Part shown: positions 86 through 56,000 of the stretch, piece by piece | How the letters are laid out: each line of letters begins with the position of its first letter | How positions within the stretch are numbered: the first letter of the stretch is position 1 | Assembly: GCA_030272155.1 (NCBI GenBank) | Contig: CP126203.1 | Location: forward strand, 4,904,501 to 4,968,500 | Origin: Tetradesmus obliquus | Taxonomy: Eukaryota > Chlorophyta > Chlorophyceae > Sphaeropleales > Scenedesmaceae | DNA: 64,000 bases | Direction: 5' to 3' | Translations under genes and position numbers: made by a program | The notes under the pieces: generated by a model | What the model was told of the DNA's origin: nothing | The model's input: only the letters and a program-made list of their open reading frames with translations | The model's database searches: none

Positions 86-3000
86 GTGCTGGTGGGCGGC
101 CCAGCGTGCCTGAAACCATCCAGCGAGGGCTGAAGGTAAAGTACGAGGTGCAATCCCCTACTCCTTGGTGTGGCTCCTGCATGTATGACGCATTCTCAAA
201 TCGTATGCTCACGTGCTGCTGCCTCTTTACCCCCCCCCCTCCTCCTGCCTTCCTTAGGACCACCATGGCGTCCACATCACTGACCGTGCGCTGGTGGTTG
301 CGGCTGAGCTGTCTGACCGCTACATCAGCGGCCGCTTCCTGCCCGACAAGGCCATCGACCTCATGGATGAGGCATGCAGCAATGTGCGCGTGCAGCTGGA
401 CAGCAAGCCCGAGGGCATCGACAGCCTGGAGCGACAGCGCGTGCGCCTGCAGGTGGGGTTTTTGGAAGGGTTGAGTTGTAGGATTTAGATTTTGAGGTTG
501 GGGGTTATAGGGTTGAGGGTGCAGCTGGACAGCAAGCCCAAGGACATCGATTCCCTGGAACGACAGCGCGTGCGCCTGCAGGTGAGGGAGCTCACAGGGT
601 TGGGTTTTAGGTTTTAGGGTTCCAGAGGTTGAAGCTTGCAGCTGGACAGCAAGCCCGAGGGCATCGACTCACTGGAGCGACAGCGCGTGCGCCTGCAGGT
701 GCGTGTGTTGGGAGGGTGCTGTTACATGGTTGAGGTTTAGGGTTTGGGACATCGACTCCCTGGAGCGCCAGCGCGTGCACCTGCAGGTGCGTGTGCATGC
801 AGGGTTGAGTTGTAGGGTTTAGTTGTAGGGTTTAGTAGGGTTTGTAGGGTTCCAGGGTTTAGGGTTCCAGGGTTCAGGGACGCAGCTGGACAGCAAGCCT
901 GAGGACATCGACTCACTGGGGTGCCAGCGCGTGCGCCTGCAGGTGGGGTTTTTGGAAGGGTTTGAGTTGTAGGGTTTAGGTTGTAGGGTTGAGGGTTCTC
1001 GGGTTGAGGGCTGCAGCTGGACAGCAAGCCCGAAGACATCGACTCACTGGAGCGACAGCGTGTGCGCCTGCAGGCAGGGGTGCAGGGTCTATTTTGTATG
1101 TGTAGCGGAGTGTGGAGCTGCGTTGATATGTGGTTGGGAGGTGGGAGGTGGAGCAGCGCTTTATATACTTTTGAACTGCAGCAGCAGAGTTGCTTGCGCT
1201 TTCACAGCAGCGGCATGTTGCGAGTGCAGGCCGTTGCAGCCGGGTGCAGATCTGCCACCCATGCAACTCCGCTCTGCTGCCCCGCCCAGCTCATTTCACT
1301 TGGTGCTCACGCCTGCATGCTGTGGTGTGCGCCTGCCTGTGCTGCCACACACCAGGTGGAGCAGCAGGCGCTCAAGAAGGAGCAGGACCCGCTGTCAGTG
1401 GCGGCCCTCAACTCCCTATGCCTCAAGTGTGCAAACATGTCCTGACCCTCTGAACTGCACCTGCCTCTGCAGGTTGAGCAGCAGGCGCTCAAGAAGGAGA
1501 AGGACCCCCTCTCAGTGGCCCGCCTGGGCGAGGTGCAGCAGCAGCTGGCCTCACTGGAGGACAGCCTGCGGCCGCTGCTGATGAAGTACGGCCAGGAGAA
1601 GGAAAGGCTCGACAAGATCCGCATGCTGCAGGGCAAGCGGCAGGAGCTGCTGGTGGCACTGCAGGGCGCGGAGCAGCGGCAGGACCTGGCACGCATCGCC
1701 GACATCAAGTGAGTGTGTGTGGGGGGTGGGGTGGGGGGGGGGGGGGGCTGCAGTGCTTGCGGCATTACAGGTTCTGCCATGGTTTTGTGCCGCCTGTTTG
1801 CAGTGCATGCGGCAGGACCTGGCACGCATTGCCGATATTGAGTGAGCAGGGGTGGGGTGAGGGGGTCCTGCTGCACTGAGTGCCGCAGTGTTGCAGGCGT
1901 GATGCAGAGTTGCTCAGTGCCAGCGCGTCTGTTTACAACGACCACTGCTGGGCATGCAGAGCTGCCCAGTGACAGCATGTTGTTGTGGTGTACGGAGACT
2001 ATTACTGGGGTAGTGTACGCAGCAACAGGACCTTCTTTACGACACGATTTTTTGTGATTGCTGCTGCTGCTGTTCTCATCTGCAGGTACGGCAGCCTGCT
2101 GGAGGTTGACGAGACGCTGAAGAAGCTGCGTGCTGCCGCCCCCAAGGGTGGCGAGGCTATGCTGGTAGAAGAAGTGGGGCCCGAGGAGATCGCTGGCGTG
2201 GTGTCAAAGTGGACAGGTGGGCGCGTGGTGCGGTGTTGCCTTGGACTGTGTACAGCCTTGTGCTGGTCTGCCTGCAGACACGTGCTGGCTGCCGCGTGAC
2301 GGCTGATGCATCTTGATGAGTGGTGGGCAGCTGTGTTGCTGGTCTAACATACGCCAGTTGCCTGGAGGTAGCTGAGGTACCTGTGTGTCTTGATGACACA
2401 GTCGCCTTACTATCTCACTCATTGTGCCACCGCACAAGATGGCAGCTGTGGAGGGCAACCCCCACCCGCAATCTCATTTTGCGTTTGCAATGCTGCCAAT
2501 GCTGTTGTGCTGCCCATTTTGCCTGCCTAACGCCACCTGCCTTCTCCTCCTCAATCGCCTCCCTCCATCTGCCCCTGCAGGCATCCCTGTCAGCCGGCTG
2601 CAGGCCACAGAGTGCCAAAAACTCCCATCCCTGCGCGAGGAGCTGCACAGGCGCGTGGTGGGCCAATAAGCATTGCAACACTAGCACTCACAACATCTGC
2701 GCTGCTGTCTGCCCTACATGCTCGCAGGCATCCCTGTCAGCCTGCTGCAGCTCATGAGGCCATGTCGCAGCACTGTCCTGCTGTGTACGCCGCTTATTGA
2801 CAACCCTGCCCCCTGCTTTGCTGTCTGCCCCTTGCAGGCATTCCTGTGAGCCGGCTGCAGGCCACGGAGCGTGAAAAACTCCTCTCCCTGCGTGAGGAGC
2901 TGCACAGGCGCGTGGTGGGCCAGGACGCTGCCGTGGATGTGGTGGCGGCTGCCGTGCTGCGCAGCCGGGCCGGGCTGGCCAGCCGCAGCAGGGGCAGCAG

Positions 3001-4779
3001 CTTCCTGTTCCTGGGGCCCACTGGGGTGGGCAAGACAGAGCTGGCCAAGGCGCTGGCGCAGCTGCTGTTTGATGATGAGCGCATGATGGTGAGTGCTGGG
3101 TTACATATGCTGTGAGCAGAGGCCGCAAGGACTGTACATGAGTGCAGCTGCTATTCAATGATCAGCGCATGATGGTTTTGGGTTTTAGGGCTGATGCCGG
3201 GGGTTTTAGGGTTCTGGGCAATGGGCGAAGACGGAGCTGGCCAAGGCGCTGGCGCAGCTGCTGTCCAACGACGAGCGCATGATGGTGAGTGGGCTGTGTG
3301 CACGCTGCTGACGGTGCAGGGCATTGCATTGGTGCATTTGCTTGGCTGCTGTGCTGCATGCTGCCTGCACTAAGCAGCTACTTCGCTGACATGCAAACAA
3401 CAACATAGCTACCAATGCTGGTAGCATGCTTACTTTTGCTGCAGATGCATCCATAACACTATGTATAAATGTTGAACCTTGCTGCTGCTGCTGCTGGCGC
3501 AGATCCGCATCGACATGGGCGAGTACATGGAGAAGCACAGCGTGGCACGGCTCATCGGGGCGCCCCCAGGCTACGTGGGCCACGAGGAGGGCGGGCAGCT
3601 CACAGAGGCAGTGAGTGGCAGGGGCATGCGGAGCTGCACGCTATGTTTTAACTATGTGATAACACTATGATAAGTTTATTAATAATGTGGTGTGCATGTG
3701 CTGCTGGTGGTTGCCGAGGAGGGAGGCCAGCTCACAGAGGCGTTGAGTGGCTGCATGGGGCATATAACACCACCGGGGCATACATGCAGCCTGCCTGCAA
3801 AGTTACGTGTGTTTTGATGTCCTTGCTGACAGGGAGCAGCGTGCTGTAGCTGCTGCTTGTGTGCCAAACGCTTGCAATTTACACAGGACATCTATGCCTT
3901 TCCATTTGTAATCATGAACATGTTTCCACCGTCATTGCTCATGAAACTTACTGTGTCGCTTCTGCTGATGCTGCTGCTGCTGCTGCTGCTCCCTGCCTTC
4001 TTCTCCCTCGCTGCTGCGCACAGGTGCGCCGCCGGCCCTACAGCGTGCTGCTGTTCGACGAGGTTGAGAAAGCCCACTCCGAGGTCTTCAACATCCTGCT
4101 GTCGATGCTGGACGACGGCCGCGTCACCGACGGTAAAGGCCGCACCGTCAACTTTGCAAACACGGTCATCATCATGACATCCAACCTGGGCTCAGAGTAC
4201 CTGCTGCAGGCAGCCGCCAGCCGGCCCACCAGCCCGGGTGACAGCACGCCAGCGTTAAATAACGCTCAGGCCAAGGAGCTGGTGCTGGCGCAGGTCAAGC
4301 GCTTCTTCCGGCCAGAGTTCCTGAACAGATTAGATGATATTGTGGTGTTTGAGCCGCTGTCGAGTCAGCAGCTGCTGGGCGTGGCGCGGCTGATGGCGGC
4401 GGAGCTCAACGAGCGCCTCGCGCCCAAAAACATAACGCTCAGCTGCAGCGACGCTGCGCTGCACTTTGCGGTGAGCCAGGCCTACGAGCCGGCCTACGGG
4501 GCCCGGCCGCTGCGGCGTTGGCTGGAGCACCACATCATTACGGATCTCAGCCGGATGATTGTGGCTGGGCAGCTGCCTGACAGCAGCAACGTGCTGTGTG
4601 ATTATGACGGCAGCAGCGGCGCGTTAGGGTACAGGGTGGAGGCCAAGCCGCTGCCGGCTGGGCCTGTTGGGGGTGCTGCGTCTGGTGTGATGGGCCAGTT
4701 GAAGCGGCAGCTGCAGCCGCTGGGCAGCGAGGCGCTTGATGAGGACCTAGATGATGATGAGGATGTGATGGAAGCATGA
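86..4779 (+). CDS. CLPB: ClpB/HSP101-type AAA+ disaggregase, 3' part of gene (N-terminus outside window)
   Basis: Hsp100 chaperones use two AAA+ rings to pull polypeptides out of aggregates together with Hsp70. My exon chain is ~86-147, 258-452, 1473-1708, 2086-2216, 2838-3088, 3503-3610 and 4024-4779, with phases matching from 258 on (559 codons). It encodes the end of NBD1 ([27 protein letters not shown]), the coiled-coil M domain ([18 protein letters not shown]), and NBD2 with Walker A GPTGVGKT (~3015), the pore-loop motif [13 protein letters not shown], Walker [11 protein letters not shown] (~4050) and sensor SNLG. The acidic tail [12 protein letters not shown] resembles cytosolic plant HSP101 rather than plastid ClpB. 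The N-domain and NBD1 Walker A lie upstream of base 1. The first exon is uncertain: bases 84-105 read better in another frame and the segment is about two residues shorter than relatives, so a small frame lesion is possible. Almost every exon has a partial duplicate in a flanking intron. Confidence 0.93.
393..1074 (+). repeat. Six-copy array of a ClpB exon 3' end with donor sites, set in telomere-like spacer
   Basis: The last ~60 bases of the exon ending at 452 (peptide [16 protein letters not shown] plus RVRLQ) recur at ~518-581, 638-698, 748-786 (5'-truncated), 882-942 and 1012-1073. The 581, 698, 786 and 942 copies keep the CTGCAG|GTG donor context; the last reads CTGCAGGCAGG and has lost the GT. 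Spacers between copies are rich in degenerate TTTAGGG, TTTTAGGG and TGTAGGG motifs. The copies lie inside the intron before 1473. Confidence 0.9.
1354..1426 (+). repeat. Partial duplicate of the 5' end of the ClpB exon at 1473
   Basis: The sequence reads AG acceptor then [16 protein letters not shown], matching the true exon start ([16 protein letters not shown]) about 120 bases downstream. It diverges afterwards. A short copy of the same exon's 3' end ([11 protein letters not shown] followed by GTGAG-like sequence) is at ~1810-1845 in the next intron. Confidence 0.8.
2578..2760 (+). repeat. Two partial duplicates of the 5' end of the ClpB NBD2 exon
   Basis: Copies of the exon start at 2838 ([19 protein letters not shown]) occur at ~2580-2668 ([19 protein letters not shown], continuing to RRVVGQ then a stop) and, more degraded, at ~2728-2758. 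Both keep a CTGCAG or CGCAG acceptor in front. Confidence 0.85.
3140..3283 (+). repeat. Two partial duplicates of the 3' end of the ClpB NBD2 exon
   Basis: After the exon ending at 3088 ([15 protein letters not shown]), its end is repeated at ~3143-3174 (LLFNDQRMM, no good donor) and ~3226-3283 ([19 protein letters not shown] followed by GTGAGT). TTTTAGGG-like motifs lie between them. A further copy of the next exon's end (EEGGQLTEA) is at ~3715-3745. Confidence 0.82.
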
Positions 4780-4859
4780 GCTGCTGCAGGGTTCAGGGTT
4801 GAGGTTTAACTGTGTTTTGGGTCGTGAAACAGCATGAAGGTTGCCTTCACAGCATCACA

Positions 4860-5252
4860 TGTACTGTGTGGATGAACAGGATGACACTGAAGTTGTGATG
4901 GAGGCGTGAGCTGCTGTGAGGCTTGGCTGCCTGGTGGGCAGCTGCAGCCGCTGGGCAGTGAGGCGCTTGATGAGGATTTGGATGATGATTATGAGGATGT
5001 GATGGAGGCTTGAGCTGCTGCATATATTAGGGCTTGACATGGCTGCTTTGTGGGTCAACAGTGGAACAGCCGCTGGGCAGTGAGGCGCTGGATGAGGATT
5101 TGGATGATGATGAGGATGTGATGGAGGCGTGAGCTGCTGTGGGTTTTAGGGCTTGACATGGCTGCTTTGTGGGTCGACAGTGGAACAGCTGCTGGGCAGT
5201 GAGGCGCTGGATGAAGGATTTGGATGATGAGGAGGATGTGATGGAGGCGTAA
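4860..5252 (+). repeat. Tandem copies of the ClpB terminal coding end downstream of the stop codon
   Basis: The last codons and stop ([18 protein letters not shown]-stop) recur after 4779. Copies are at ~4940-5013, ~5068-5132 and ~5190-5252, with a shorter one (DDTEVVMEA-stop) at ~4872-4909. Most keep GAGGATGTGATGGAGGC and a stop in the same register. They lie in the presumed 3' UTR. Confidence 0.85.
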
Positions 5253-7168
5253 GCTGCTGCATATCATGTTGACCCTGGCTCGCTTGGGCTTCCTCTCCTT
5301 GGTTGCACGTTAGCGTAATCTATTGTTCAGGTGTGAATGCGTTGTGGGTCTTGGAACGGCCTGGTGGTTGTCGTGCTACCGTTGCATTTGTTGTATGAGA
5401 GAGGAGCTGCATGACAACGATGATGAAGTTGCTTATGGGGGCGCGAGCTGCTGCAGGATCCGGCTGCATTTTCAGTGGTGAACGTGCCTAGTGTTTACTG
5501 CGCCAACGGCACCTATTTGGAGTCGCAGCGCTGCTGTGATGCCACTGCCGCGGGCGGTGCTGGCTGCATTGCTGTGGATGGGCTTGACATGACGATGACT
5601 GGACAAGGTTCACCTGCAGTTTGCATCATGGTGATGAACGGCGCGTGTGCGGCTGCTCCACCTTGCGCCATGCACCTTGTGCCGTGCACCTGGTTTACAA
5701 CCTCCGGGTGGACAAGCATTTTAAGCAACATAATGTTGGTTTGGGCGGGATGTACCTGGTTTGGGGGATGTTTGAGCTGCAGTTCATTTGTGAGCGATGA
5801 GTTGTTGAGTGGGCCATGGACGTAACCGGCCTGTAGCATCAGCATGGTGGCAGAGCAATAGACCAACATGTTACTCTGTGCTGCAATGCATGGCTGTGCC
5901 TTCAGGCATGAACCTGCAGCTGGCTGTAACAGGCATCACAGCTGCAGCACCTGTGGCGTCAGATTCCTGTGTTTGACTATGCTGCATCAGTGATGTCACA
6001 AAGCAGTGACATCATTTGCATCCGGCATGCGGTGCAGCGGGAGTGTCAAATGCATGTAGGTTTCAGGCCCACGGGTTCAGCTGCTGTGACCACCGCAGTG
6101 CAGCAGCATCTGCTGGCCTGGCCTGCTCCGCATTGCTGTCGCCTAGTCAGCCTCTGATTGTTGGCTGGCACTGCATTGCAGTCTGCATCGCAGTGGCAAC
6201 TTGATCAAGGCTGCAGCCGAGTGCACCATGCCAGGTGCCGGCATTTACATTTGGTGACAGCCTGGTTGTATAGAAATGCATGCCCTCAGCAGGCGGCGCT
6301 GTCGCGCCTTATGATTGCTGCGCATGCCTGCGTCTTGTGTATGTCATACATTTGAAAGTGGATCAGTGTTCTGTCTGTTGTGCTGGTCACGAACCCTTCA
6401 TAGTATGCAAGACAGTTGAGGGTTGTATCAAATGCTCGTTGCTGATGACATGGCACGCGCATACTGAGAGTGTCGGCCACAGCAACTCATATATGGCTGT
6501 GTTTCTTTATGCATCTGTTCATGGCAAGTTGGCAGAGTATGGCGCTTATGCAGTGCTGTTGCAAAGCCACGAGGTACTGGAACTGAAAGGAACAAAACGG
6601 ATGTGCCAGTGCCTAGACGCCGGCAGCCACACACAGCTGCGTCTTGCCGCTGCAGCAGCACTGCTAGCAAGGGCGTCAAGTTGCTTCTCGAGTCACGGCA
6701 GTATAGTGAAGGCATAAATAGGCGCTGCTGTTTGTTGCATTGCCAGCATGTGCCCCATCGGTTCGCCGCCCTGTCAGCATGTGGGGTTTGCATGTAATGC
6801 TTGGTGTCCTGCATATGCATCTCAGATGCGTATACAGCTGCAGTGTAGCTGTCACCTCTGATGACACGACGGCACCAGGGAATAAGGATGCAAGCATGAG
6901 AACACATCAGGTTGCAGGATGGCATGGCATAATTCAAAAAGCAACAGCAATTGTTTAACAGTGAAGCCAGTGGTTGTTGCAAGTGGTGATGGTTGGTGCA
7001 AGTTGACACAACTTATGTCACACCCAGCCACCAGAGCATACAACAGGAGTGCACACTCGATCGCATGTATACTTATTATTTTCAGAAAACATTAGCATTG
7101 AAGAACGTTATAGTCCACTTCCTGTTTGCAAAATCAGCATTGCTTTTCTTCGAGCGATCACGATCAGC
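5253..7168. other. Intergenic region, no supported gene
   Basis: I found no convincing coding exon between the ClpB 3' copies and the oxidoreductase start. Open frames here (for example 5475-5825) are short, lack family motifs and show no exon-like structure. The segment probably holds the ClpB 3' UTR and the promoter of the next gene. A possible TTTTCAG acceptor at ~7080 could belong to a 5' UTR intron. Confidence 0.5.
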
Positions 7169-8075
7169 ATGGCACAGGTTGCTCTAGTGCAGGCGCATAG
7201 GCCATTAAGCAACTGGAATCTTACGGAAGAAACATTACCCGACTTATATGTTGCAGCGAATAGCGTGGAGGATATATGCGCCGTGGTGAAGGACAGCATC
7301 ACTTATCCCTGGCCTGTGCTGGCCGTCGGGTCAATGCACAGCGTGAATGGTTGCATCTCAAATACAGGAACCATACTGAACATATCAGGTGGGTGGAACA
7401 GCAAGGCAGCGTATGCCGTACTGGTTTGTTGCAGAACGCGGGAACGCCCGCCCTAGTCAGTAGTTAATCGCACCAGCGTCACATATACCTGGCGATTGCA
7501 GGTCTCAACCAGATCAAGGGAGTAGAAAGCAGCTGCGTGCGCGTGCAGGCTGGTGTGAAGCTCGCTGACCTGCACGACTACCTGGCCAAGCAGGTGGGGC
7601 GGGAACAAGCAGCATCGTGTGCAGCCGAGTATCAACGATAACCAGTCCACTCCAATTCACTCTCAGTCCAGCGCCGAATGCAGATCTGGTCATCCATCTG
7701 GTCACCTTTCTGGTCACCCATCTGGTCACCCATGCAAAGTCTCCAGCTGCATCACTGCTGGCACTGCTGCTGCACATGCCGCAGTCACTGTAGCTGCAGG
7801 TGTAATTCGTATGCACCCGATGCCGCAGCTTCAGCACTGGATACTTCGAGGCAAACGCTCATAACTGCATGCACCAACTGCTGCCAACTTCGCCCCTTTC
7901 ACAGGACCTGGAGGTGTCCTTCAGCCCTGAGATTGGTGACGCCACAGTGGGCAGCCTGGTGGTGTGCACCAGCAAGGACTCAAGCATAGACGGCCCGGGG
8001 TACCTGTCGGCGCTGGTGACAGAGGTGACATACGTGGACGAGGTGAGGGGGGCGTGCACCGCCCAGCAGCACGAC

Positions 8076-8152
<77 letters not shown>

Positions 8153-9794
8153 CGCAGCAGCAGCCTACACAGCTTCACAGAGCACTCCACAAGCACCCAA
8201 AACATGTTTGCACTGCATGTATCAGCAGCCCTTTTATGTTGTCTTGCACCCTTGATAATAGGAAGCAGCGCTTACCCGGCAACTTCTATTTCTTATGTGT
8301 GGCCTGCAAACAGCGCGTTGTTGCCAGCTATACACTACGACCGTTCTTTGTGTAAGGCAGCTTGATGCTGCTGCATGATGCAGCCATGAAGCCTGTCATA
8401 TTTGCAGGAAGAGCATGGCTGCATAATGCACACTCATCTGCTGCATTGTGTAAGCTGCAGGATGGCTGTCTGGTCAGCCTCAGCCTTGCAAAGGACCCCT
8501 CAGCGCTGCTGGCCTTCACCTGCAGCTACGGTGAGGCAGGAAGGGGCAGAACATGCAGCGCAGCAGCAGCAGCAGCATGGCAGCAGTGATGTGCGTCTGT
8601 GGGTGTGGACAGCAGGAGCAGCAGCAGGGCTGACGCGCAGATGTGCTCCCTGGCTCAGTTTGAAGCAGAACAGGCAGCACTGCAGCACCAGCAGTGGCGT
8701 CAGCAGGGCAGCAGCGCACAGCTGCATCTTCCAAGGAATTTGGCAGGACAGAGGCTAGCAATGCTATCACAATCAGCTGCAGCTGCTGTGCTGAGCTGCT
8801 GCGATTGTCAGCAGTGGTCAGTATATCATGGTGCAGGTTGCAGGTCATGTTGATAAAACAGCAACAGCAGAAAACAACAGCAACAGCTGATCAATTGCTG
8901 CTCCGCAAGCATGATGGACTGCGCTGTAGGCTATGCTGCAGGCAAGGCAGCCACAGCGCTGAGGCATAGCAACCCTTTTCTGGTCTCCTTTCTTGGTCTC
9001 AGACCTGTGTTCAACCTGTTGTGGCTCATACCATCCAAGATGGTGCCAGGACCCACATGTAACTATCCTCTCTCAAATAGCAACAAATCACCTGAACAGA
9101 TTAATGCTGCCCCGCAGGCATGATGGGCATCGTGGTGGAGGCTGTGCTGGAGGTGAGGAGCAGGATCGCCATCACCACCAGCGGTTACGCCTTCATGACG
9201 CGCAGCGGCGAGGACGCAGCAGCACACCTGGCGCAGGCGCAGCAGCAGCATGACGCGCTGTTTGCCATCCTGGTGCCCGGCAAGCAGCACCTGTACGTGG
9301 AGGCGCGTGACAAGGTGGGTGGGCTGAATGTGGCAGCAATGTGGTGGTGCTGACTTGTTGATGTGGCAGCAACACAGGTGCGCTAGCATGGCAGGCGAAG
9401 CACTTGCAGCAGCACGACAGCAACCAAGTATCTCACCAAAAGCCCTTTGACAATGCTGAAGCTGTCTGCTTCAGAGGCATCATGCTGCGCTGATGATGAT
9501 GCATGTGATGCTGCTGCCTGCAGGCCAGCAAGTCAGCGGCGCGGCTGGCGCGCAGTGCTGCGCTGAGTGCGGTGAGGACGCTGGGCGTGAACGGCTTCGT
9601 GAAGGCCTTCATGCAGCGCACCAAGTACAAGTGGGTGGCCAGTAGCCAACGGTTGAGTCAAGCTGCGGTATGCACATAGCGCAGCCTCGCTGTGCTATAA
9701 AAGGCTTGGATCTAGAAGAATGGAAAAAGTGACAGCAAGGGGCAATGCTGGTGTTGATTTGCGGTGCGCGTGCGGCTTCGGCTGATGCATCAAA

Positions 9795-9829
<35 letters not shown>

Positions 9830-10947
9830 TGTGCGTCCCCGTTGTGCCAATGCAGCTGCTTCCTGCGCGGCACGCCCATGGGCAAGATGATGGCCAAGCT
9901 GCTGGCAAAAGACAACCCGCCCACCACGCACTACAGGCGCGCCTTTGTCAACCGCTACCCAGCAGTGGAGCCGGGGTGGGTGATGTCGACAGTGCTGCCA
10001 GCAATAGCAGTATATGGTACAATAAAGTGCATCTCAGGACTTACACCTGCGTTAGACACTAGGCCTAGCAACAGCAGCAGCAATGCCCAAGGCGTGGCTT
10101 GGTTGCCTGGAACAACAGCTGCCTTTCTGACCGCTTTGAGCCACCGCAGCAGCCGTTGAGCACAAGCTCTTGCCCGCTGCTCGCTGCCGCCCGCAGCTCG
10201 CGCCGGCTGGACTTCTCCTTTGTGGAGTTTGACTTGCCGCAGCTGCAGTCAGTCGTGGCGGAGTGCTGGGAGCGCCACTTTGAGTTTAAGCAGCGCACCG
10301 GCTGGGCCCCTTCAGGCTACGGCGTGTACTTCGTGCCGCGCGGCTGGACGCAGCAGCGCGCGCTGCAGCACAACGTCAGCGGCGCCAAGGCTCTGGCCAA
10401 GCCGTGCGGCAACTTCAGCGGCCCGCCCGGTGTGAGCTTCATGCTGGACCCCATCACGGGGGACTGCGACGACCCACGTGTGAGTGGCAGTGTGCAGGGC
10501 AGGCTTCTAGCTGCATGGCATGCTTGCACATGTTGAGCATCTGGGCTTTACACAAGCATTGCCCTGGCAGCGGTGAGAAGCAACGTGCCTTTTGTTGCAT
10601 GGCTGCGTGCAATAACCCTTTGCTGCTGAGCACTGCATGCACTGCCGTTCATCTTCTGGCCTGATTGTGTTCCTTCCCGTCACTCTCCTCAAGCTCCTTT
10701 GCGGCTCGTCACTGCATGCACGACAACAATAACCTTCTGGCCTGATTCTGTTCCTTTCTGTCACCATTCTTGCTGCCCCCTGCAGTGGCTTCAGTTCAAC
10801 CTGGAGTACAGTGCGTGGGCTGTGTCGCGCGGCGCCACGCCCAGCCTGAGCCAGAGCAAGGGCCTGCTGCCGGGCCAGGCGGGGCTGCCACAGCAGCTCA
10901 CACGCAGCCGCTTTTTGACCCCACACTACGCGCAGTTCGTGGAGTGA
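7169..10947 (+). CDS. FAD-binding (VAO/PCMH-type, aldonolactone-oxidase-like) oxidoreductase, copy A
   Basis: Predicted FAD-linked oxidoreductase of the FAD_binding_4 superfamily; the substrate is unknown. Exons 7169-7388, 7502-7593, 7905-8042, 8461-8530, 9118-9314, 9524-9630, 9856-9975, 10197-10479 and 10786-10947 join in phase to 462 codons, the usual size for this superfamily. Residues ~45-60 carry the FAD loop VLAVGSMHSVNGC; the His following GS-M is where some relatives bind FAD covalently. LKGVE-like and VQAGVKLADLHDYL follow, then CSYGMMGIVVEAVLEV, the end of the FAD domain. The C-terminal half (FVNRYPAVEPG, GVYFVPRGWTQQRAL, FLTPHYAQFVE) would form the substrate domain. The start is the first in-frame ATG; no signal peptide is obvious. 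A (CAG)n tract at 8079-8130 follows one donor and (CTG)n at 9797-9830 precedes one acceptor. A near-identical but damaged copy lies inverted at 17999-12851. Confidence 0.8.
7684..7734 (+). repeat. Short tandem repeat, TCTGGTCACCCA-like 12-mers
   Basis: About four units of a 12-base motif (TCTGGTCAYCYW) lie in an intron of oxidoreductase copy A. Confidence 0.75.
8079..8165 (+). repeat. (CAG)n/(CAA) microsatellite in intron
   Basis: An almost uninterrupted CAG run followed by interrupted CAA/CAG sits ~40 bases after the donor at 8043. Comparable trinucleotide tracts occur at 9797-9830, 19202-19234, 27065-27101, 41595-41632, 43793-43841, 47172-47200 and 62245-62292, mostly in introns. Confidence 0.9.
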
Positions 10948-12850
10948 CAGCTGCAATCTGCAGGCCAGCAAGCTGCTGGTACTACCTAGTAGGACAGGTG
11001 CTGCTTGCTAATTGCTTGAGCGGGGCTGCTGAACGACTTTCGGCAGTAGGCTGCTGCTTGGCTGGAGTCTGCGGTTGACAACCATAGCGAATCTGGGCAG
11101 CATAGTACTTGAAACACAAGATCTAGCCAGATGGTGGTAAATGGCTGCAGCGCACCAGCACTAGTCCCATGCTGTCATTGAAGCGTAACGGAGGGGCAGC
11201 AAAGCAGCACTAGTACTAGGGGGGCGATGTAGTGAATGAGAGTTGGGGCACGTTGACCTCAGATTGTTCTGTTATGGGGAGGCAGCACCACAGGTGTAAG
11301 GCTGCTGGCATAAAGCATTTTGCCAGGTGCTGGCTCACAAGAGCCGTTGTCAAACGTGCCTGCTGCCTGTGCAGCATGCTCGAGTCAACGAATTTGGCAT
11401 GTTCTTTATTTGTTGCTGGTGACGGACTCTGCATGCATTCCATATTTTGAAATCAACTCATACACAACATTACACTTGTCACACAAAAATCAAGTAGTCA
11501 TGTGCATGCATGCATTGCTGTCTGCAGTCACATGACCGTGCATACCATATCAGTGTTCAGCAACAGTTACTGCTTTGGTTTTCTAGGTTCCAGTTGCTGC
11601 GTTGGCGCGTGCATGGAATTGCAATGTGGTGACTGGGCAAACCATACGCCATGTGAGCTCTTCTGGGCGCTGTCAACCAGGCGCCATACCATTGCTTGAA
11701 GGTGTGCAGTCATGCATGTTTCTTGGTTCGTTGGAGGCCAGGAGCCATAAGGAGTCGATTAGAATACATCAGTGCCTCAGCTAGGGCTGCACAGTGTGGC
11801 AGGTATGCAGTGCGAGGTGGTGCCAGTGCTGCTGTTGCCATCGTAGCGGCTGTTATTTGCCACGGCAAGGTGTGCAGTGTGCGCTTGCCGGCGCTTGCTT
11901 GGGATCCTGCAGCTAGCTGGTGCGCTCTACCTTTCCCACAGGTCAGCCTTTGTAGAGGCCCACTACGGTATATGCAATGTAAACAACACCTTTGTGCATG
12001 TACTCAATGCTTGGCAAACCGGCCGACCGCCACGCGTTGAACACCACCACACGGGACACAGCAACACAAGCTTGGATCATGGCCAAATTGTACAACCTGT
12101 CGTGCCACTGCACCGCCAGCTGACACTGTGCTGGTGCCTCCGGCTGCTGCTTAGGTTGACATGTTTGATGTCTATCAAAACAAGAGTTCCAGCAACAAGC
12201 AGCAGTGTCCCTTTAATCTCTTGCCCAGCCACCATCAACCATGTTGCCAAGCAAGCCTCATGGTATCAGCAACGGCAACGTCAGCCCCACTGATGACATG
12301 CCGTGTCGTGCTGCACATGCACCCCTGTTGGCGCCAGCTGAGTCTCATGGGAGGCACACGTGGACTCCTAAAATAGGGCTGGGCTTACTACAGCACAGCA
12401 CATGCCTTAAAAACGTCATGTTACACACTTGCATACATAAGTAACACCTTATGGTAAAGGCAACCGCCATTATTCTGCGTCATCCTATCCACAGCTGAAA
12501 TTTGGTGCTTCACTGCGCTCACAAGCCCTTTTACTTCTGGATGTACTGCCTCAAAACCGTATTTGGAAAATGCAGTTCAATTCATGTTGTGCTGTTCAGC
12601 GATCTCATGCGCTGCCATGCCAGCTGGCAAGCCTGGTAGCATCACCAGCATAGCTCAGCAGGCAGCTCTTTAGAGCTAGCCTGTATGAATGGCTGTTATT
12701 TGGGCAGCAAACACAGCCACATGATCATTCGTCAACTTTCCTCCTCCGCCAAGCTGTAGTTCATTGAGCAATGCATTCGAGAAAAGCCCAGCCAGCACCT
12801 GCACAGCCACTGATTTGCATGCATGCACCGCCCATCCACCACCGCAGCTG
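10948..12850. other. Spacer between the two convergent oxidoreductase copies
   Basis: This ~1.9 kb region separates the stop codons of copy A and inverted copy B. It is less GC-rich than the exons and holds no recognisable gene. A TGTAA motif (11295-11299) is a possible polyadenylation signal for copy A. On the opposite strand a TGTAA lies at ~12421-12425, possibly for copy B. Confidence 0.5.
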
Positions 12851-14679: not shown

Positions 14680-14785
14680 GTCATGAAGGCGTGTCATGAA
14701 GGCGTGTCATGAAGGCGTGTCATGAAGGCGTGTCATGAAGGCGTGTCGTGAAGGCGTGTCATGAAGGCGTGTCATGAAGGCGTAG
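14680..14785 (-). repeat. 13-bp minisatellite, 8 units, inside a coding exon of copy B
   Basis: The plus-strand unit is TGTCATGAAGGCG, present eight times (one unit with TGTCGTGAAGGCG) where copy A has a single equivalent (coding AFMTR). The 91-base excess exactly explains the length difference between the two exons and shifts the frame. Confidence 0.93.
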
Positions 14786-14851
14786 GCCGTAGTGGTGACG
14801 GCGATCCTGCGCCGCACCTCCAGCACAGCCTCCACCACGATGCCCATCATG

Positions 14852-14965
14852 CCTGCGGGGCAGCAAACTTCTCAAGATATTTGGTGCTGCAGCTCAGCTT
14901 GAATGCTGTTGTGCTTGCAGCACAGCGTCCACCACGATGCCCATCAATCCTGCGGGGCAGCAGAT
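14852..14965 (-). repeat. Duplicate acceptor plus exon 5' end in copy B
   Basis: The exon start at 14852 (GCAG|GCATGATGGGCATCGTGG in sense) is repeated upstream at ~14952-14917, again preceded by CCCCGCAG. A comparable duplicate of the exon at 15676 (DGCLV..SLS) occurs at ~15815-15780. Confidence 0.8.
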
Positions 14966-15153
14966 ATTGGAGATGTTTCAATCTTGAGATGTTTCGTTGC
15001 TGTATCTCAGCGCGATGGCTATCGCGCTTGTGCCGCCTGGCTTACAAGCCCATGGGCCCATGGCATATTTATGCCCAGCATGCCTGTGGCGCAGCGCAGC
15101 ATACAGAATGTGACAGCCGCTTGGCCGTGACTTCAATGCTGATGCAACTGCTT

Positions 15154-15382
15154 GATGTACTCATGTGTGCAGTAGCAGCGCGTGTGCTGTTGATATACTC
15201 ATGTGTGCAGTAGCAGCGGGTGTGCTGTTGATGTACTCATGTGTGCAGTAGCAGCGGGTGTGCTGTTGATGTACTCATGTGTGCAGTAGCAGCGCGTGTG
15301 CTGTTGATGTACTCATGTGTGCAGTAGCAGCGGGTGTGCTGTTGATGTACTCATGTGTGCAGTAGCAGCGGGTGTGCTGTTG
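15154..15382 (-). repeat. 38-bp tandem repeat, six units
   Basis: The unit begins GATGTACTCATGTGTGCAGT on the plus strand and recurs six times with one or two substitutions. It lies in an intron of copy B and is absent from the corresponding intron of copy A. Confidence 0.92.
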
Positions 15383-16500: not shown

Positions 16501-16562
16501 GTAACTGCTTGCTGCACTGAATAGAACACAAACTTGAACCACCTGCTTCACTCATCCGATGA

Positions 16563-27063: not shown

Positions 27064-27102
<39 letters not shown>

Positions 27103-38460: not shown

Positions 38461-38464
38461 CGCA

Positions 38465-45355: not shown

Positions 45356-47170
45356 TCAGGGCTGCGCCATCAGCTGCCGCCTGTACTTGCTGACGAAGCC
45401 CTCCAGGTTGCGCGCCTTTATAGCAGTGGGCAGCCAGCCGCGCAGTGTGAGGCAGCCAATGCGGCCCACCGCATAGCTGCAGCAGCCGCGGCACGGCAGG
45501 GCAGCGGAGGTATGAGCGCGGTGCAAAATCCAACAGCAAACATTGGAAAGGCATGGCATCTGCACTCAAATAGCATGCCTGTTGCGGAGGACCTGTAAGT
45601 CAAAGGGCACTCTCAGCTTAGAGCCTGCGCATCTTCAGCGGCACATGGCTGCCGCACACACAACTTGAGCATCGCTTCAGCATACGCCGCACCAGCTGCA
45701 GGCCCCATCAACCAGCAGCAATCACGCCACTCACCCCCGCCCCAGCGTCACTATCATGACTGCGATGCCCTTAGACGGCCGCCAGCGCCCCAGCCGCTTG
45801 CCGGCCGCGTCTGTTGCAGTCTGCCCCCCTGCCACATGTGCTGCTGCCAGTGCTGCGATGCTGGCCGCCACCAGCTGCCCCTGCTGGCTGGCCAGGAAGG
45901 CCAGCTTCTCCTCAGGCACGTCAGTCACATCACCTAGTGCAAACAGCCGCGGGTGGCCCACCACGCGCAGCGTGGCGTCCACCTGCAGGAGGAGGCAGCA
46001 GGAGGCAGCAGGTGGCAGCATTACCGCTGAGCCAGTCAGTCAGCAGCGCGCTGCGAGGCCTGCAGTGCGGCGAGGGTTGATTGCCTTTGGCCGTGTAAAG
46101 CAGTTCTACAAGCCATAGTGGCGAGACAACACCATTTGCTGACCCAATTCTGCTGGCAGCTCACAGCAGCCTCCGTTCCGCACCTTCACGCGCCCCTGTG
46201 GGTCCAGTGCATCAGGCAGCGTCTGTGCAAGCAGGCCGCTGTTGGTGGTGATGCCTGTTGCCATCAGCAGCACGTCAGCAGCCACAGCCACGCCTGCCGA
46301 GGTGGTGCCGCTGAAGGGGCCGCCGCTGCTGCCAGGCGGCACCTGCAGCTTGTCACCTAGCAGCAGCTGCAGGATGGCGGCGGGAGCAGCAAGGCATTCA
46401 GCATTTGCAGATAAGGGCATGCTTGACATGCAGCTGGGTGGCTTTGTAGCTGCCATGGTCAACTCCAGCTGACTGCAGGCAGGCGCCACCTGGCACACCC
46501 TATACTGCAGCTTGTCACACAGCCAGCTGAGGGCGGGGCACGAGAAAGGCAGTCAGGGCTTGCAGGACAACGCATGCTGGGCATACAGCAGGGGTGATGC
46601 GCAAAGTGTTGGTGCAAAACTACAGCCGACACCTGGCACTCCTGGGCTACAGCTGTAACTCCTCAAACAGCGGGGAACTGCAGTGCACATCCTGTTGCCA
46701 CCTGCGTCGTTGCTGCTGCTGCTGCCCCTGCTGCTGTGGCGGGCTCACCTTGCAGCCTTTGCTGCGCAGCCAGGCCTCTGCTGCTGCACTGGCCTTGGGC
46801 GTGAGGCTGGGCAGCAGCCGCTGCCCGCCATGCACCAGCGTGACCTCGACGCCAGGAAGGTCCTGCGGCGGCGGCAACAGCAGCAGCAGCAGCAGCAGTA
46901 GCAGCCATGGTGTTGCACGCCAGCCTGAGCAGCAACCAGTTGACCTCCATATTGTGGCTATTGCAATCCACCACTTTCGCATCACATCCTGTCTATGCAC
47001 CAGCTGGTAAGGCTGTAGCTGGGTGCGTGGCGAGGCAGGTGCCTGGCAGGCTGACGCTGCTAAGGGTGCCAGTTCCATTGCTGGCAGAACTTGTGCGGCG
47101 GTGCAATGGCTAGACACAATCAATCCAACAAGGACCGACGAGCAAGGCTGCTACCCCTAACCAGCTTGCA

Positions 47171-48602: not shown

Positions 48603-49962
48603 GTGCTTTCGGCGCCCGTCAGGCCCTGCTCAAGTGGTGAGCTGAACAGGGAAGAAATGAGAGAGATTTGCCGAGTTTTGGCTTTTACAACAACGCTAGC
48701 CTTTGCTGCACTGGCTTGCTCAGCAATGCTGGAGTTCTGGGGTGCACCAGGCACTTGTAGCGAAAGAAAGATGGACAGCTAGGGTTCCGGGCTCCGTGGC
48801 ATCAAAGTAGGCGTAACAGATCTGTTCACTTGAGTGGTGAAAATGCTCGTTGAAAACCCCGCACATCAGGCAAGGGGCTGCGCGCACAATGAGGAGCAGC
48901 AGCAGGCAACAGACAGCTGGCGCTGGCCGAACTGGCCACCATCAAGGCATGCCAAAAAGGTTGCAGACTGGTTGACCACCGCATGTACTGAGCAACTGTA
49001 CGACCCGCGAGGTAGACAAGTAGTGTGTACATCACTCATGGGAGCTCAACATACGCATTGACGGCCGTCCAGCTGTGCATGGCTGCCGGCACCAAACCAG
49101 CTCAACACGACACCAGCTGCACACGGGCCCTAGTTGCCTGCGTTAAATGCTCACAGCCGTGCGCAGAGCACACGGTGCGCTCTACAATGCTGCTGCTGCT
49201 GCTCATCACATGGAGTGGTTGGCAAACAAGTGTGCTAGCATGTGAAAACAATACGCCTGTGCACCCCCAGCCAGCCCCAACACAGTGCTTTGTTTTGAGC
49301 GCAGCCACTAATGAAACGCCCGGGCTGCCTAACAACATGACCCAGGCTCACAGGTATTGACGCGCCAACCCAGAAGACGCTGCGTGCCCCAGCTGCCCCA
49401 CCCAACCCTCAACCCTACCCAAACCACCGCACCGCATGCTAACCATGACACAAGCAGTGCTGTGCCCCTGGAACCCTGTATGCATTGCAGCAGCGACCAT
49501 GGCAGCCGCTGCAGCAGCCAGGCCCATGTAGCGCTGCTGCTGTTCACTGCTGCTGAGTGCTGCTGGATTGCAGCCACACCATAGCACACATCGCTGCTGC
49601 TCAACTGCAATTTACCTGCCAGGTCCACTGCGCGCATGTGAAAGAGCTGTGTAAATGTAAACGGAAACCAAATCCTGCGATATCACAACCTGCTAGCTCA
49701 AACATCATCCGCTGCTGCTGCACCCACCGGCTGCAGCAGCCAGCTGTCGGCCCACACGGCCACGCCAGGGCGCCTGGCCAGGCAGCCCCTTCACACCAGC
49801 TGGCCAACACAAACAGATCTTATCGCCGCCCTGCCGCATCAGCCTGCCGCCACACCTGGGCACAGCTGCAACGCCTGCTGCAGCCGCCGGTGCAGCCCCC
49901 AGCACAGGCCTGCTGCTGCAGCTGCTGCTGAGTCAGGCGCCGCCTGCCGCCCCTGCTGCTGC
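48603..49962. other. Intergenic: AIFM2-like promoter and SERBP1-like 3' flank
   Basis: About 1.36 kb between two minus-strand genes. No supported coding sequence was seen; short open frames are compositional. Confidence 0.5.
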
Positions 49963-52588
49963 TCAGCCCAGGCTGGGGAAGGCGCTGGTGTCCTCCACGT
50001 TGATGGCAGCACCGGGGCCAGCAGGGCCGCGGGGCCTGTCGCCACGCCCGCCAAAGCCGCCGCGCTCGGGCCTGTCGCCGGAGCGCTCGCCACGGCCGCT
50101 GAAGCCACGCCCGCGACCGCCGCGGCCGCCCCTGTCACCCCTGCCCCTGCGCTCGCCAAAGCCGGCGGTCTCGGTGGCCACCTGGGCGCAGCACAACACA
50201 CAGCAGCACAGTGACAGCAGCAGAAGGGGTCAGCACAGCTGGCAGCAGATGTTCTCGAGATGCAGGCTTGCACCAGGTCTGGGTGCCGAGTGCAGTGTGC
50301 TGTTGCTGCTGCAAGCCAATAGGTGCCAGTGCAAGCATCCAGCTCCAGTGGCTGTGTGCTGCTGCCATGCTAGCCTCTCCTGCAGCGTCTGCCGGCTGAC
50401 ACAACCAGGGCCGCTTGGCCCCCACCCCGCCCCTGGCCACACCCCACCCTGCTGCTGCCTCACCTTGAAGTTGGCCTGCAGCACCTCCTTGGCCTTGAGC
50501 TCCTTGGCGCGGGGGCCCTTCTTCTCCTTGGATGTGGACACCTGGCAGCAGCGGCAGCAGCAGCAACGGGGTGAGATACAAATACAAGACTGACAGGCAA
50601 CGGCAGGCCAATTACTCATCTCCTGCAGAGCGCCAATCTAATGCCACCCCATGACATTTGGTGACTGACGAAGGCCGCACAGCCGCACGCCAAGCAGCAA
50701 GTAAGCTGCACAGCAGCTGCTCGCCCCAGCAGCCCTCCGTTCCCCCAGTTGCCAGCACCACCCTCTGCTGTGGACTACTGCCGCCATGCCATGCAATCCG
50801 CTGAGTGACATTTACTGCACACCCGCACACGAAGCAGCGAGTGAAGTAACCACTGCTGGCCCCAGCAACTGCCCCTCACCCCCAGCGGGTTCTCCTCCTC
50901 CTCCTCGTCCTTGTTCACGGCCTTGAGGTTGGCAAACTCGGAGATGTCCACGGTGCGCGTGGACGCCTTCTTGTTCAGCGCCGCCTTCTTCTCAGCCAGC
51001 AGCGCCTCGTACTCGTCCAGGCTCATCTCCTGCAGCGGCAGCAGCAGCAGCAGCAGCGGCAGCAGAAGTCAGTGACACATGCAAGCTTATCTGTGGGCGT
51101 TGCTGATGGCACACGGTGTGCTGCTGGGATGCTACAAGGCTGCCCCACACCCTCCAACAACTGCTGTTGACAACCCCAGCTGCCAAATTCTGGGCGATGG
51201 CGCCTCCTGCTGCAGCCCTACTGCTGTGCTGGCAGCTGTTATGTCCACCTGCACCTCCGCCGGCCAGCACCCCCCTGCTGCTGCTGCGCACCTTGACCTC
51301 CTCCACGGGTGCCACCTCCTCTGCTGCGCCCTCCTCTGGTGCCTCTCCCTCGGGCTTCTCAGCAGCCTCCTCAGCCACGGGCGCCTCCTCAGCAGCGGGT
51401 GCGTCAGCGCTGCAGCACCAAGCAGGCAGCAGCAATTGCAGCAGTAGTCCAACGAGCAGGTTAGTCAAGAGCAGGAGCACACAGAGTAATAATATAGCAG
51501 CAGCCAGGGCAGTGCGAAACAGTTAATGCTCGCAGGGATGGTTGCCTGACAACAGCAGTGCCAGCGGCACCCAAGGCTGGCTATGTCGATCACTGTGCAT
51601 CACCATCACAGCCATGGTCGTCAGCGCTAACACTGACAGCAAAGATGTTTGACATACAACCATGATTAGCTGCGTACTGGGGAGCGTCTCACGGCCATCA
51701 CTGCAAGGAGCAGCGGCCGCTGCTGCTGCCGCTGCTGTTGCGCACCTGCCATCATCAGCGCCCCAGTTGCCCCTGCCGCCACCGCCACGCTTGGAGGCCT
51801 CATACCTGCAGCCAAAAGCATCCATAGTGAGCACAATGCTCGCCGTTGCCTGCATCATGGGCACATGTCACTGCTCAGGTGTCCCCAGGCTGGCTACTCA
51901 CCCCCTGCCAGTGCCATCATGCCTGTCGAACTCCCTCCTTGGGCGGCTGCTGTCGTAGCTGCCGCGTCCGGCACCACGGCCACGGCCACCACGACCCTCG
52001 CCACGGCCACGGCCCTCGCCACGCCCGCCACGGCCACGAGCTGCAGGGGCACCTGCTGGTTCGTGAGTTTCGGCTTGAGGAGTGCGAAGCAGGTGCGATC
52101 GCGGTGCTGGCAGCTGCTGAGGGCGCAAAAACTGCTGATACGATCAAAACATACCTGCATCATAGCCATTCTCGGCCACCTCGCCGCTCTCTGCGCGGGG
52201 AGCACCCAGCCTGCCCCGCCCAGGTGCGCCACGGCCCCTCACGTCGCCACCCCGGCCACCGCGTGCGCCACGGCCTGCATCAGGCTTGGCAGCAGGTGCC
52301 TTTAAAGCGGCTGCAGGCGGTCAAAGTACAGAAAGTAGGCGCAGGCACGTCAGGCTGAGTGAGGATCGGCAAAAGAAGGCGGCCAGCTGTGCCCATTGCG
52401 GTCCAGGCGCACAATCATAAACTGTGCATATCGAATGCAAATAAACAGATGATTGATCACTTACCCTTGGGCTCCTCCTTCTTCGGTGCAGCAGCCTTGG
52501 CCTTGGCTGCTGCGAGCTGCTCGATGTTGGGCTCTGCGTTCTCGTCAGTCTCGCCCAAAAGATCAAAGGGGTTGGTAAGGTCTGCCAT
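49963..52588 (-). CDS. SERBP1/Stm1-like (HABP4_PAI-RBP1 family) RGG-rich RNA/ribosome-binding protein
   Basis: Family members bind mRNA and 80S ribosomes, stabilising idle ribosomes (Stm1, SERBP1; plant RGGA). Exons 52588-52465, 52310-52155, 52052-51902, 51805-51746, 51409-51292, 51029-50880, 50541-50464 and 50181-49963 join in phase to 351 residues. The N-terminus MADLTNPFDLLGETDE matches the family's N-terminal motif. Two Arg/Gly regions follow (ARGGRGGDVRGRGAPGRGR; GRGEGRGGRGRGAGRGS), then an acidic Glu/Ala/Pro segment and the conserved core MSLDEYEALLAEKKAAL..FANLKAVNKDEEEE. A C-terminal RGG box (RRGRGDRGGRGGRGRG) ends in AFPSLG. Cytosolic location is expected. An intron near 50640-50870 contains a diverged internal duplication. 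Confidence 0.92.
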
Positions 52589-53074: not shown

Positions 53075-56000
53075 ATGGGCATGGCTATGGCGCCTGTGTG
53101 TGGCACAACAGAGCCCCAGCAACAGCAACACCAACAGCTGCAGCAGCAGCTGGTACCTGGCGCAGCAGCTGGCCAATTGACAACTGGCACCCCACCAGCA
53201 TCGGCATGCACAGCAGCACCCACCCAAGTGCCAGCCCAGCAACCTCCTGCAAGCAGCAGCAGCGGCAGCCGCATCCTGTTCCTGGTGGTGGTCAGCGGCG
53301 CTGACCTGGACTGCCTGGAGGAGCCGCGCCCAGCAGGTGAGCAATCCAAGGCCCAAGCAGCGGGAGATGTAGGTGCTGTATGTCAAGAGTAGCTGCAATG
53401 AGTCGCAATAGCGCTCCAATGTTCAACCTGAGCTGAGCGAGCTGTTATACAAGGCCCCACCAGTGGAGAACATGCGAACTGGACGTCAACGGCAGCTGCA
53501 ACCAGTTGAAAACCCGTTCCCATGTCAATTTGCAGGGCCGCGCTACACGCGCGACGCGCTGCGCAGCCTGCTGCTGCTGCTGGGCTGCAAGCCGCGCCTG
53601 GCCTACAAGATCTCCAGCGGCGTGTTTGCGGCGGTGGATGCGGCAGTGGCCAGCGCGAGGGGGGCGCGCGGCTGCCGGCGCACCACGTTCCAGGTGTGTT
53701 GAACCTCATTTGAGATGGCAGCACGAGCTGAGCTGCTGGCAGCTTCCTATCTTATCAGATGTCTGTTGTGGCATATACCGCATGACACATTGATGTAACC
53801 CCTCTTCTCGTTACGGTTATCTCCTCCCAGGTGCACCCGCACCGCAACGGCAAGCTGTGGGTGAGCCTGACGCGTGGCGACTTCATGGGCCTGGTGTCGG
53901 GCTGCGCAGCGCAGTACGCGTACAAGATCAGCCCCAGCAGCGACGAGCTCAAGGTGGCCTGCAGGTGTGCGGGGCAGTGTGTGGGGGTGGTGCTGTGGGC
54001 CAGCATGGCTGCAGGAATGATGCCAGGGAGACGGTGGTAGCGGGCGTGGGAGTTGATCGTGCGTGTTGGTACAGTGGGTGTGGGTGGTGAATGTTTGGCA
54101 GGTGCTGTGACAGCGTGCATGGTCGCCGCATGCGCACACTTGCAGCAAACGCTCCCCCGCTGGCTGAGTGTTGTGTCAGGCCATAGGAGGCAAGTTTCCT
54201 GCGAGCATCTGACAGGAGTCGCAGCAGTGTTGTTGCAGCAGCACGGGTGCCCTGCATGCTGCCCATGCACTGTCAGCTGGCCCACTCAGCAGGAGCTGGT
54301 CTGATGATAAACAGTGGCTTGTTACGAGCCTGTAAATTCGTGACGGTATCACTCGCAACACTGCGCGCTGACATCTTGCTGAGCCGTGCTTTGCTGTTGT
54401 GCCGCCTCTCTCTCATGCTGCCCCTGCTGCAGCCTGCGTGAGCGGCGGCGCTGCGTGGTGGTGCTGCTGTGTGGCACCAGTGGCAGTGGCAAGTCGACAC
54501 TGGCCTCCATCCTGGTGCGGGTGATGGCTGCTGCTGCTGCTGCTGCTTGGCAGGCAGACGCGACAGACGCGGCATGTCTTTTAATGCTGCTCCTCCTGCT
54601 TCCAAATGTGTGGTCAGCATGTGCATATTGCTGTTCTGCTGCACGTTTGCATGATGTTAAACCAAACCACTTACTTGTTCACTCTGCGTGCCAGCAGAAC
54701 AGTGACAGCAGCCTGTTTTCAAGCCAACCTTTGCTGCTTGCGGTGCAGGCCAACCGGCTGGGCATCACCACTGTCATCAGCACAGACAGCATCAGGCACA
54801 TGCTGCGCAGGTGAGCAGTGGCTGCGGGCAGGTGCACAGACTGCTGCAGTATACTGTGCCAGGCACCCGCCTGTGCTGCTGCAGATGCTTGGCAGGGCAC
54901 ATGCGGCAGGGCGCAGGCAGCATGGTGCACAGCCTGCATCCTCCTGGCAGGGATGGCATCGGCTGTGCGTGCGTCTTAATGGCTGGGATAATGTACCAAT
55001 AATTTTGCATGCTGTGCTTGCTGCCGCGCTGCAGCTTCTCACCGCGCGAGGCCTCTCCGCTGCTGTGGGCCAGCACGTACCAGGCGGGCGAGTTTGTGCA
55101 GCCAGGGGAGGGCAAGGCAGGCAAGGTAAGCCAGGCGCCGGGCATCTCTCTCTGCTGCACTGCCACCAGCACAGATGTTGCATGGCGCTGCTGGTCTGTG
55201 TGTGGTGCAGCTCCACGGCTCTAACACCAGTGTTGATCTTCAACCCACCAGTGTCTCACGTAGGGCTTATGTGCTTGCCGCCTCATATTCTGCTCCCGCC
55301 CGGCAATGCATGCCGCTGTACTCCTCTGCCGCCGCATCCTGAGCAGGCCTGCTCCAACAGCAACTTCACACTGGCGGGCCATACGGCGCATTGGTTTGCG
55401 ATTGGGTGTGCGTGTTTGCCCACTGCTCCTGCTTGGATGTGCATGCTTCGTGCTGCGCCCACAGGCCTGCTCTGACGGTGAGCGCACGCTGGCCGGCTAC
55501 AAGGCGCAGTGGTCTGTGTTTCTGTGCGTGTTTCCCCACTGCTCCTGCTTGGTGTGCATGCTGCTGCACTTTTTGCCGCCCCGCAGGCCTGCTCTGACAG
55601 CAAGCGCACGCTGGCTGGCTATACGGCGCAGTAACTTGTAGTATTATGCTTGATTGTGCCTGCTGTTGCACGTCATGCTGCCCCCGCAGGCCTGCTCCGA
55701 GGGCGAGCGCACGCTGGCCGGCTACAAGGCGCAGTGCGAGCTGCTGGCGGAGCAGCTGGAGCTGCTGGTGGCGGGCTGCGAGGCGCGGCAGCAGAGCCTC
55801 ATCTGCGAGGGTGAGTGGCACGGCTGCATGGCTTGGCAGGCCGTTGGCAGGAGGCTGTTGGCAGCTGCTGAGGCTGCATCAGGGGCGGAGAGGTGCATAC
55901 TGCCAAAGGCCCGGGTGCGAGCAGTATGGGCTCCAGCTGTGGCTGCGTGGCGGAAGTCAGATGTTGCTGGGCTGCGGCAGCAGCGTGCCTGAGCGTGCAT

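Follow-up and report, generated by a model that had tools for sequence, protein, structure and literature searches.

In the green alga Tetradesmus obliquus, the ends of exons, together with their splice sites, recur as partial copies inside the adjoining introns, a pattern that we describe here for a 64-kb window (the whole stretch of DNA analysed, 64,000 nucleotides at C13:4904501-4968500) and for samples from other contigs of the same genome (104.7 Mb, 17 contigs). Over 264 kb, 74 of 678 modelled boundaries (~11%) have the exon end and splice consensus copied into the intron next to them; the affected sites are 32 of 339 acceptors and 42 of 339 donors. These junction copies are probably old tandem duplications of ~100-150 bp that crossed exon-intron junctions, were tolerated by splicing and are now decaying.

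The 264-kb dataset comprises the window and ten 20-kb samples (S01-S10, named in order from S01 = L006+L007 to S10 = L024+L025), one from each of contigs C1-C10. Gene models were self-trained from a seed of ClpB exons defined by tblastn; a first pass called many junction copies as exons, and first-pass exons lying almost wholly inside repeats were masked as copies before the gene model was rerun. Some modelled edges are displaced in ClpB, where an exon start is placed at 1482 (true acceptor edge 1473) and the end of the last exon at 4764 (true stop 4777-4779). Local direct repeats were detected by BLAST in 3-kb windows; repeat pairs with a spacing above 600 or a length below 25, and exons shorter than 25 bp, were excluded before boundaries were counted. 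Nine of ten gene-model proteins match a Pfam family above the curated cut-off, four of these being encoded on other contigs (COX15, a formyltransferase, GCS2 and a NIF phosphatase) and picked because they bear copies; the FAD-binding match of a flavin adenine dinucleotide (FAD) oxidoreductase falls just under its cut-off (25.7 versus 26.4 bits).

The 288 repeat pairs spaced at most 600 apart divide into 124 that span a boundary with a copy in the adjoining intron, 122 that are noncoding only, 11 that are exonic only and 31 that are mixed, being partly exonic without a boundary anchor. In 200 circular shifts, from which shifted pairs running off the sequence end were discarded, spanning pairs averaged 49 (standard deviation 8.7) and never exceeded 70; mixed pairs, at 31 versus a shift mean of 95, are depleted. 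These counts bear out, beyond the window as well as in it, the central claim of the initial annotation that exon ends and splice sites are copied into adjoining introns, and they exceed chance. The window contains spanning pairs, and so does every one of the ten samples except S02. Grouping the pairs gives 115 arrays, of which 71 are spanning, 13 intron-only, 12 intergenic, 6 exon-only and 13 other. In the 71 spanning arrays the repeats are direct, adjacent, in the same orientation and laid across a junction, as in tandem genomic duplication, and it is under this class that the pattern is filed; as a genome-scale form of it, the pattern is new to the literature found. The spanning class requires a copy on the intron side, so sidedness is no independent finding for these counts. 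The consistent side remarked on previously holds as a pattern, but not as the sign of a special system, because a junction-spanning tandem duplication that does not alter the mRNA can only have its extra copy in the intron.

The spacing between copy and true site has a median of 129 (quartiles 111-145) across the spanning arrays. Many alignments cover 20-110 exon bases and end a few bases (2-9) into the intron, at GTGNGN or CAG, and others extend 20-70 bases further into it. Unit alignment resolves the multi-copy arrays as plain tandem repeats of an exon part plus an intron part, and full units including the intron part are found in S05 (149-bp spacing, five copies), S10 (~100 bp, six copies) and TCF25 (72 bp, eight copies). 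Among 53 testable partial pairs, the intron remainder is similar in 16 (z > 3 against base-composition shuffles), one of which has 31 identical exon bases. Direct orientation, typical spacing, the inclusion of intron bases and these similar remainders together support the process proposed at the outset, duplication across exon-intron boundaries, and each copy probably began as one contiguous tandem duplication. The units are mostly partial with respect to the exon; a whole exon of 105 bp is enclosed in an array in S07 (18409-18513), and the earlier statement that full exons are not duplicated holds nearly everywhere and fails there.

We propose that the genome repeatedly undergoes local tandem duplication, typically of 100-150 bp at a time, through replication slippage, nick repair or some other process, and that the copies arise in this way. 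Where the unit spans a junction, the true splice site would still yield the original mRNA, and the extra exon piece, the decoy splice site and the duplicated intron piece would all be removed by splicing, which would be the reason that such duplications are tolerated. Duplications internal to an exon would persist only when in frame. Once fixed, the copies would decay. The intron-derived halves, in which both copies accumulate mutations and large indels, would be the first to become unrecognisable as repeats; what could still be seen would be an exon end and splice consensus, located in the intron and separated from the original by the length of the former unit.

Neutral tandem duplications were simulated with assumed values for unit length, indel spectrum and codon constraint and run through the pipeline used for the real data. 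They yield partial and splice-site-edged matches, too few of them at high identity unless most events are old; at equal rates they roughly match the array-level identities between real exon and copy. Several observations weigh against decaying tandem duplication as proposed here. There are no spanning pairs in S02; the intron remainder lacks significant similarity in 37 of the 53 testable pairs; none of the 11 boundary pairs with at least 93% identity is full length, even though noncoding DNA does hold young tandem duplications of full length; and the third-position ratio of differences between real exon and copy is 2.47 (confidence interval (CI) 1.96-3.07), versus at most ~2 expected for a dead copy opposite a constrained exon. 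The equal-rate neutral simulation moreover predicts a ratio of spanning to intron-only arrays of 0.83-0.87, versus the observed 71:13, and gives a poor fit (G 36.9 and 22.4) to the joint table of identity against match extent. Family-supported genes hold 34 spanning and 5 intron-only arrays, ~8 times per possible placement, and window genes alone hold 21 and 5, a ratio of ~4.8 per placement. Pure neutral tandem duplication at equal rates fails on both the boundary excess and the joint table and was rejected. The fit to the joint table improves to G 11.6 with copies at 0.4 of the intron rate, and a finer grid of copy rate over intron rate gives G 19.5 at 0.2, 11.2 at 0.35, 11.8 at 0.5, 24.5 at 0.7 and 14.7 at 1.0, where the last value depends on a component whose detectability is 1%; the grid fits are noisy, none of them weighty singly. 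Exon-derived parts, as judged by these models, appear to decay 2-3 times more slowly than intron-derived ones (copies at ~0.35-0.5 of the intron rate), which would raise the ratio of spanning to intron-only arrays through detectability alone, and most of the boundary excess would then reflect the slower decay and longer detectability of exon parts. The slower decay may stem from the composition of introns, with their repeats and large indels, from weak selection or from conversion by the exon, and the boundary excess may also come from a mutational preference for boundaries.

The splice-to-splice spacing is indifferent to frame, being a multiple of 3 in 19 of the 74 cases, whereas exon-only arrays have a spacing divisible by three in 6 of 6 cases, indicating that selection filters duplications inside exons and not those across junctions. 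An insert read in the frame of its exon meets a stop in 51 of 74 copies versus 326 of 445 control introns, 35 of 40 indels in exon parts are not multiples of 3, and mismatch neither rises nor falls clearly as one moves away from the splice site. In view of frame, stops and indels, retention of the copies as alternative coding exons was rejected. By codon position, mismatch is 0.071/0.064/0.166 between exon and copy and 0.092/0.106/0.154 between copies; copy-specific changes are nearly even (0.053/0.064/0.086), indicating that the copies are weakly, if at all, shaped by coding. That selection keeps the copies, whether for splicing (alternative or decoy sites) or as alternative ends of the coding sequence, is in our judgement quite improbable. 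It would suit the slower decay of exon than intron parts, the third-position ratio of 1.55 between copies (CI 1.09-2.06) and the splice dinucleotides, identical in 37 of 40 donor and 30 of 32 acceptor copies, although only copies whose match extends to the site enter this count. Against it stand frame indifference, control-level stops, frame-shifting indels and the absence of a clear mismatch trend, as well as TCF25, whose copies are missing from both the annotated T. obliquus protein and a relative's transcript-derived protein, both of which follow the true exons. The ladder of selected alternative splice sites put forward in the initial annotation is not supported, as neither a frame-keeping spacing nor freedom from stops is the rule among the 74 cases, and the junction copies are probably without function.

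Alternatively, though in our view this is unlikely, the copies might stem from contiguous tandem duplications in which short-tract gene conversion, templated by DNA or RNA, has repeatedly rewritten the exon parts to match the true exon and left the intron parts to drift apart. Across 29 multi-copy arrays, copy-copy identity is 0.86 in exon parts versus 0.615 in intron parts (random intron 0.47), with the exon part the more similar in 26 of the 29, and neutral settings that give an intron identity of 0.60-0.62 predict only 0.78-0.80 for exon parts; 10 of the 11 boundary pairs at 93% or above stop at the splice consensus with at most 12 intron bases; and unit u2 of the ClpB array has one variant in common with the exon and another in common with the other copies. 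These features favour conversion, which, however, does not produce the third-position excess, and 30-100 bp is a short block length for ectopic conversion. Preferential preservation or refreshment of exon-derived intron copies from the true exon, through gene conversion or RNA-templated repair that does not reach beyond the exon and splice consensus, strikes us as fairly unlikely; if true, the introns of this alga would hold living echoes of exons, beyond decaying duplications. A repair or RNA-templated event that pastes an exon end and its splice consensus, and no further intron, into the adjoining intron would account for alignments that stop within the first intron bases with variant-specific donor identity and nothing evident beyond, as well as for the pairs without significant intron similarity. 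Such exon-limited copying is nevertheless highly improbable, given that the 16 similar remainders match at the same offset, that the spacing is like that of full tandem arrays, and that mixed pairs, which would include exon-interior pieces in introns, are depleted. An artefact of assembly or gene modelling, to which self-trained models and uncertain short exons could give rise, is exceedingly improbable, as the copies differ mutually and from the exon, occur in samples of nine other contigs, and lie beside exons that homologous proteins support in TCF25 and ClpB, with Pfam supporting several of the sampled genes.

Tandem duplication across splice junctions is known from single cases and is a proposed source of introns. 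Exon duplication, including that of mutually exclusive exons, repeats whole, in-frame exons in tandem; it shares tandem exon sequence with the alga, where units are mostly partial and frame-blind and where whole exons repeated in frame are not the pattern, S07 giving the one whole-exon case. The initial annotation knew of no named system with this signature, but a precedent exists in potato RNA-dependent RNA polymerase (RdRp), where a tandem duplication crossing an intron-exon boundary created a new intron and an inserted exon segment (PMC4974935); in the alga, by contrast, the extra unit lies within an old intron, the frame is untouched, and the event is no single case but recurs at about a tenth of sampled boundaries. 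Intron gain by duplication is described in Drosophila (PMC2891723), and in Rogers-type gain an exonic AGGT segment is duplicated (PMC4974935, PMC2891723). Rogers-type gain resembles the algal pattern in that local tandem duplication occurs in genes and the duplicated DNA is neutralised by splicing, and differs from it in that coding DNA is duplicated and one copy becomes intron, whereas the algal unit straddles an existing junction. In TCF25, the only gene tested, no new intron from duplication was found, and the annotated protein skips copies inside existing introns. Introner elements of Micromonas (PMC3488318) are also repeats within green-algal introns near splice sites, but form dispersed families, whereas the algal repeats are local. 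Introner-like mobile introns were rejected, as only 3 long-range intron-intron similarities, and no families, occur among 456 modelled introns. In Scenedesmus acutus, intron-retaining transcripts are reported for phytochelatin synthase in a paper whose main text contains neither 'repeat' nor 'duplicat' (PMC12899622). A genome-scale description of the junction-copy pattern was not found in the literature searched, from whose coverage subscription papers mostly fall out. With ~11% of sampled boundaries affected, the alga would let the origin rate of duplications, their tolerance and the neglect of decoy sites be measured, as well as the frequency with which duplications give new or longer introns, and it carries the warning that gene finders will take junction copies for exons.

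Within the window, copies occur at 22 gene-model boundaries, one of which (4764) is actually the stop end of ClpB and has no splice site. Eight of 11 gene models bear them, namely ClpB, FAD oxidoreductase copies A and B, kelch, TCF25, alpha/beta hydrolase, pyridine-nucleotide oxidoreductase and a P-loop kinase-like gene; this corrects an earlier count of six of nine genes plus oxidoreductase copy B and leaves the pattern standing. No copies are listed in 49433-52588 and 60507-64000, the stretches previously given the names SERBP1 and rhomboid and said to seem free of them. The copies reported at the stop end of ferrochelatase could not be recovered, with zero repeat pairs in 26,000-30,500 and only a CAG-rich 49-bp array downstream (26510-26659).

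ClpB, on the forward strand, bears copies along much of its length. Tblastn with a relative's transcript-derived protein (P0003) places recurrences of the end of exon 258-452 at 513, 636, 748, 883 and 1011; with the sequence and unit alignment, these five downstream-intron copies of the exon end and its donor span ~513-581, 636-698, 748-786, 883-942 and 1011-1073 (whole feature 258-1079). The spacers of this array (453-1012) are rich in telomere-like GGGTTTAG motifs, and the modelled introns taken together have 11 sense-strand occurrences of TTTAGGG and one of CCCTAAA. Repeat pairs and the sequence give the exon start at 1473, with its acceptor, an upstream-intron copy at 1353-1402 with a spacing of 117 (1353-1519). 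Repeat pairs likewise link exon end 1708 and its donor to a copy at 1809-1864 with a spacing of 133 (1676-1864; copied exon-end stretch overall given as 1780-1864), and exon end 3610 to a copy at 3715-3751 (3583-3751). Exon start 2838 has upstream copies at 2568-2665 and ~2727-2750 (2568-2922; tblastn, sequence and repeat pairs), and exon end 3088 has copies at ~3140-3175 and 3222-3291 (range 3210-3291; feature 3027-3291; tblastn and repeat pairs). As the initial annotation held, the end of the last exon, with its stop, is copied after that stop: repeats and sequence show further copies 3' of it up to 5264, in units of 104-120 (4706-5264).

TCF25, also on the forward strand, is 95% identical over its whole length to T. 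obliquus A0A383V684. Exon end 32053 has three downstream copies (32001-32532; repeat pairs), which are absent from T. obliquus protein P0122. Repeats and unit alignment reveal eleven copies upstream of exon start 34147, with a unit of ~72 and longer (33164-34293). Exon end 34293 leads into a 25-bp array (34283-34482), beyond which lies a longer copy at 34496-34539 (34256-34539; repeats and protein comparison). Repeat pairs and protein comparison further identify a copy of exon start 35913 at 35755-35812 (35755-35961) and copies of exon end 36287 at 36456-36546 and 36625-36688 (36200-36688).

The remaining copy-bearing genes were mapped mainly from repeat pairs. FAD oxidoreductase copy A (forward strand) has a copy of exon start 9118 lying 209 bp upstream (8896-9153, extent approximate), and copy B (reverse strand) has a copy of exon start 14852 at 14918-14962 (14821-14962). 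On the reverse strand, the kelch gene has six upstream-intron copies of exon start 21748 at spacings of 101-135 (21694-22493; repeats and unit alignment) and one copy at each end of exon 22974-23172 (22832-23369); the alpha/beta hydrolase gene has copies at both ends of exon 38709-38992 (38464-39274) and a copy 148 bp from exon start 41290 that includes 58 intron bases (41247-41495); and the pyridine-nucleotide oxidoreductase gene has a copy 162 bp from exon start 46366 (46343-46600, extent approximate). The P-loop kinase-like gene, on the forward strand, has two copies upstream of exon start 55690 (55307-55736; repeats and repeat pairs).

The two FAD oxidoreductase genes form an inverted pair (7165-10954 and 12844-17686) whose last exons are 96% identical and whose other exons are 80% and 90% identical. 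Their introns are broken by large gaps and reach 75-88% identity when only aligned columns are counted, or 54-65% when all are; they are partly barely above chance, since the same aligner scores unrelated sequence at 74% and 51%, respectively. Exons at 96% beside one at 80% suggest patchy conversion between the pair, to judge from sequence comparison. About eight copies of a 13-bp unit occupy 14676-14783, within the stretch of copy B homologous to copy A exon 9118-9314; copy B may be damaged there or have acquired an intron.

Four young full-length tandem duplications (W:43470, W:15152, S09:15325 and S01:19320, W denoting the window) are noncoding or mostly so. At 43470-43709, in an intron of the alpha/beta hydrolase gene model, the tandem duplication is perfect over 118 bp, and the duplication process may still be active. 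Elsewhere in the window, where no exon is modelled, 18810-18899 is a perfect palindrome of 90 bases, self-complementary throughout. In L011, two identical 71-bp direct repeats lie 206 bp apart (6096-6372) with ends TGTAAC...GTTACA, an arrangement resembling a miniature long terminal repeat element and comparable to TRIM/SMART elements.

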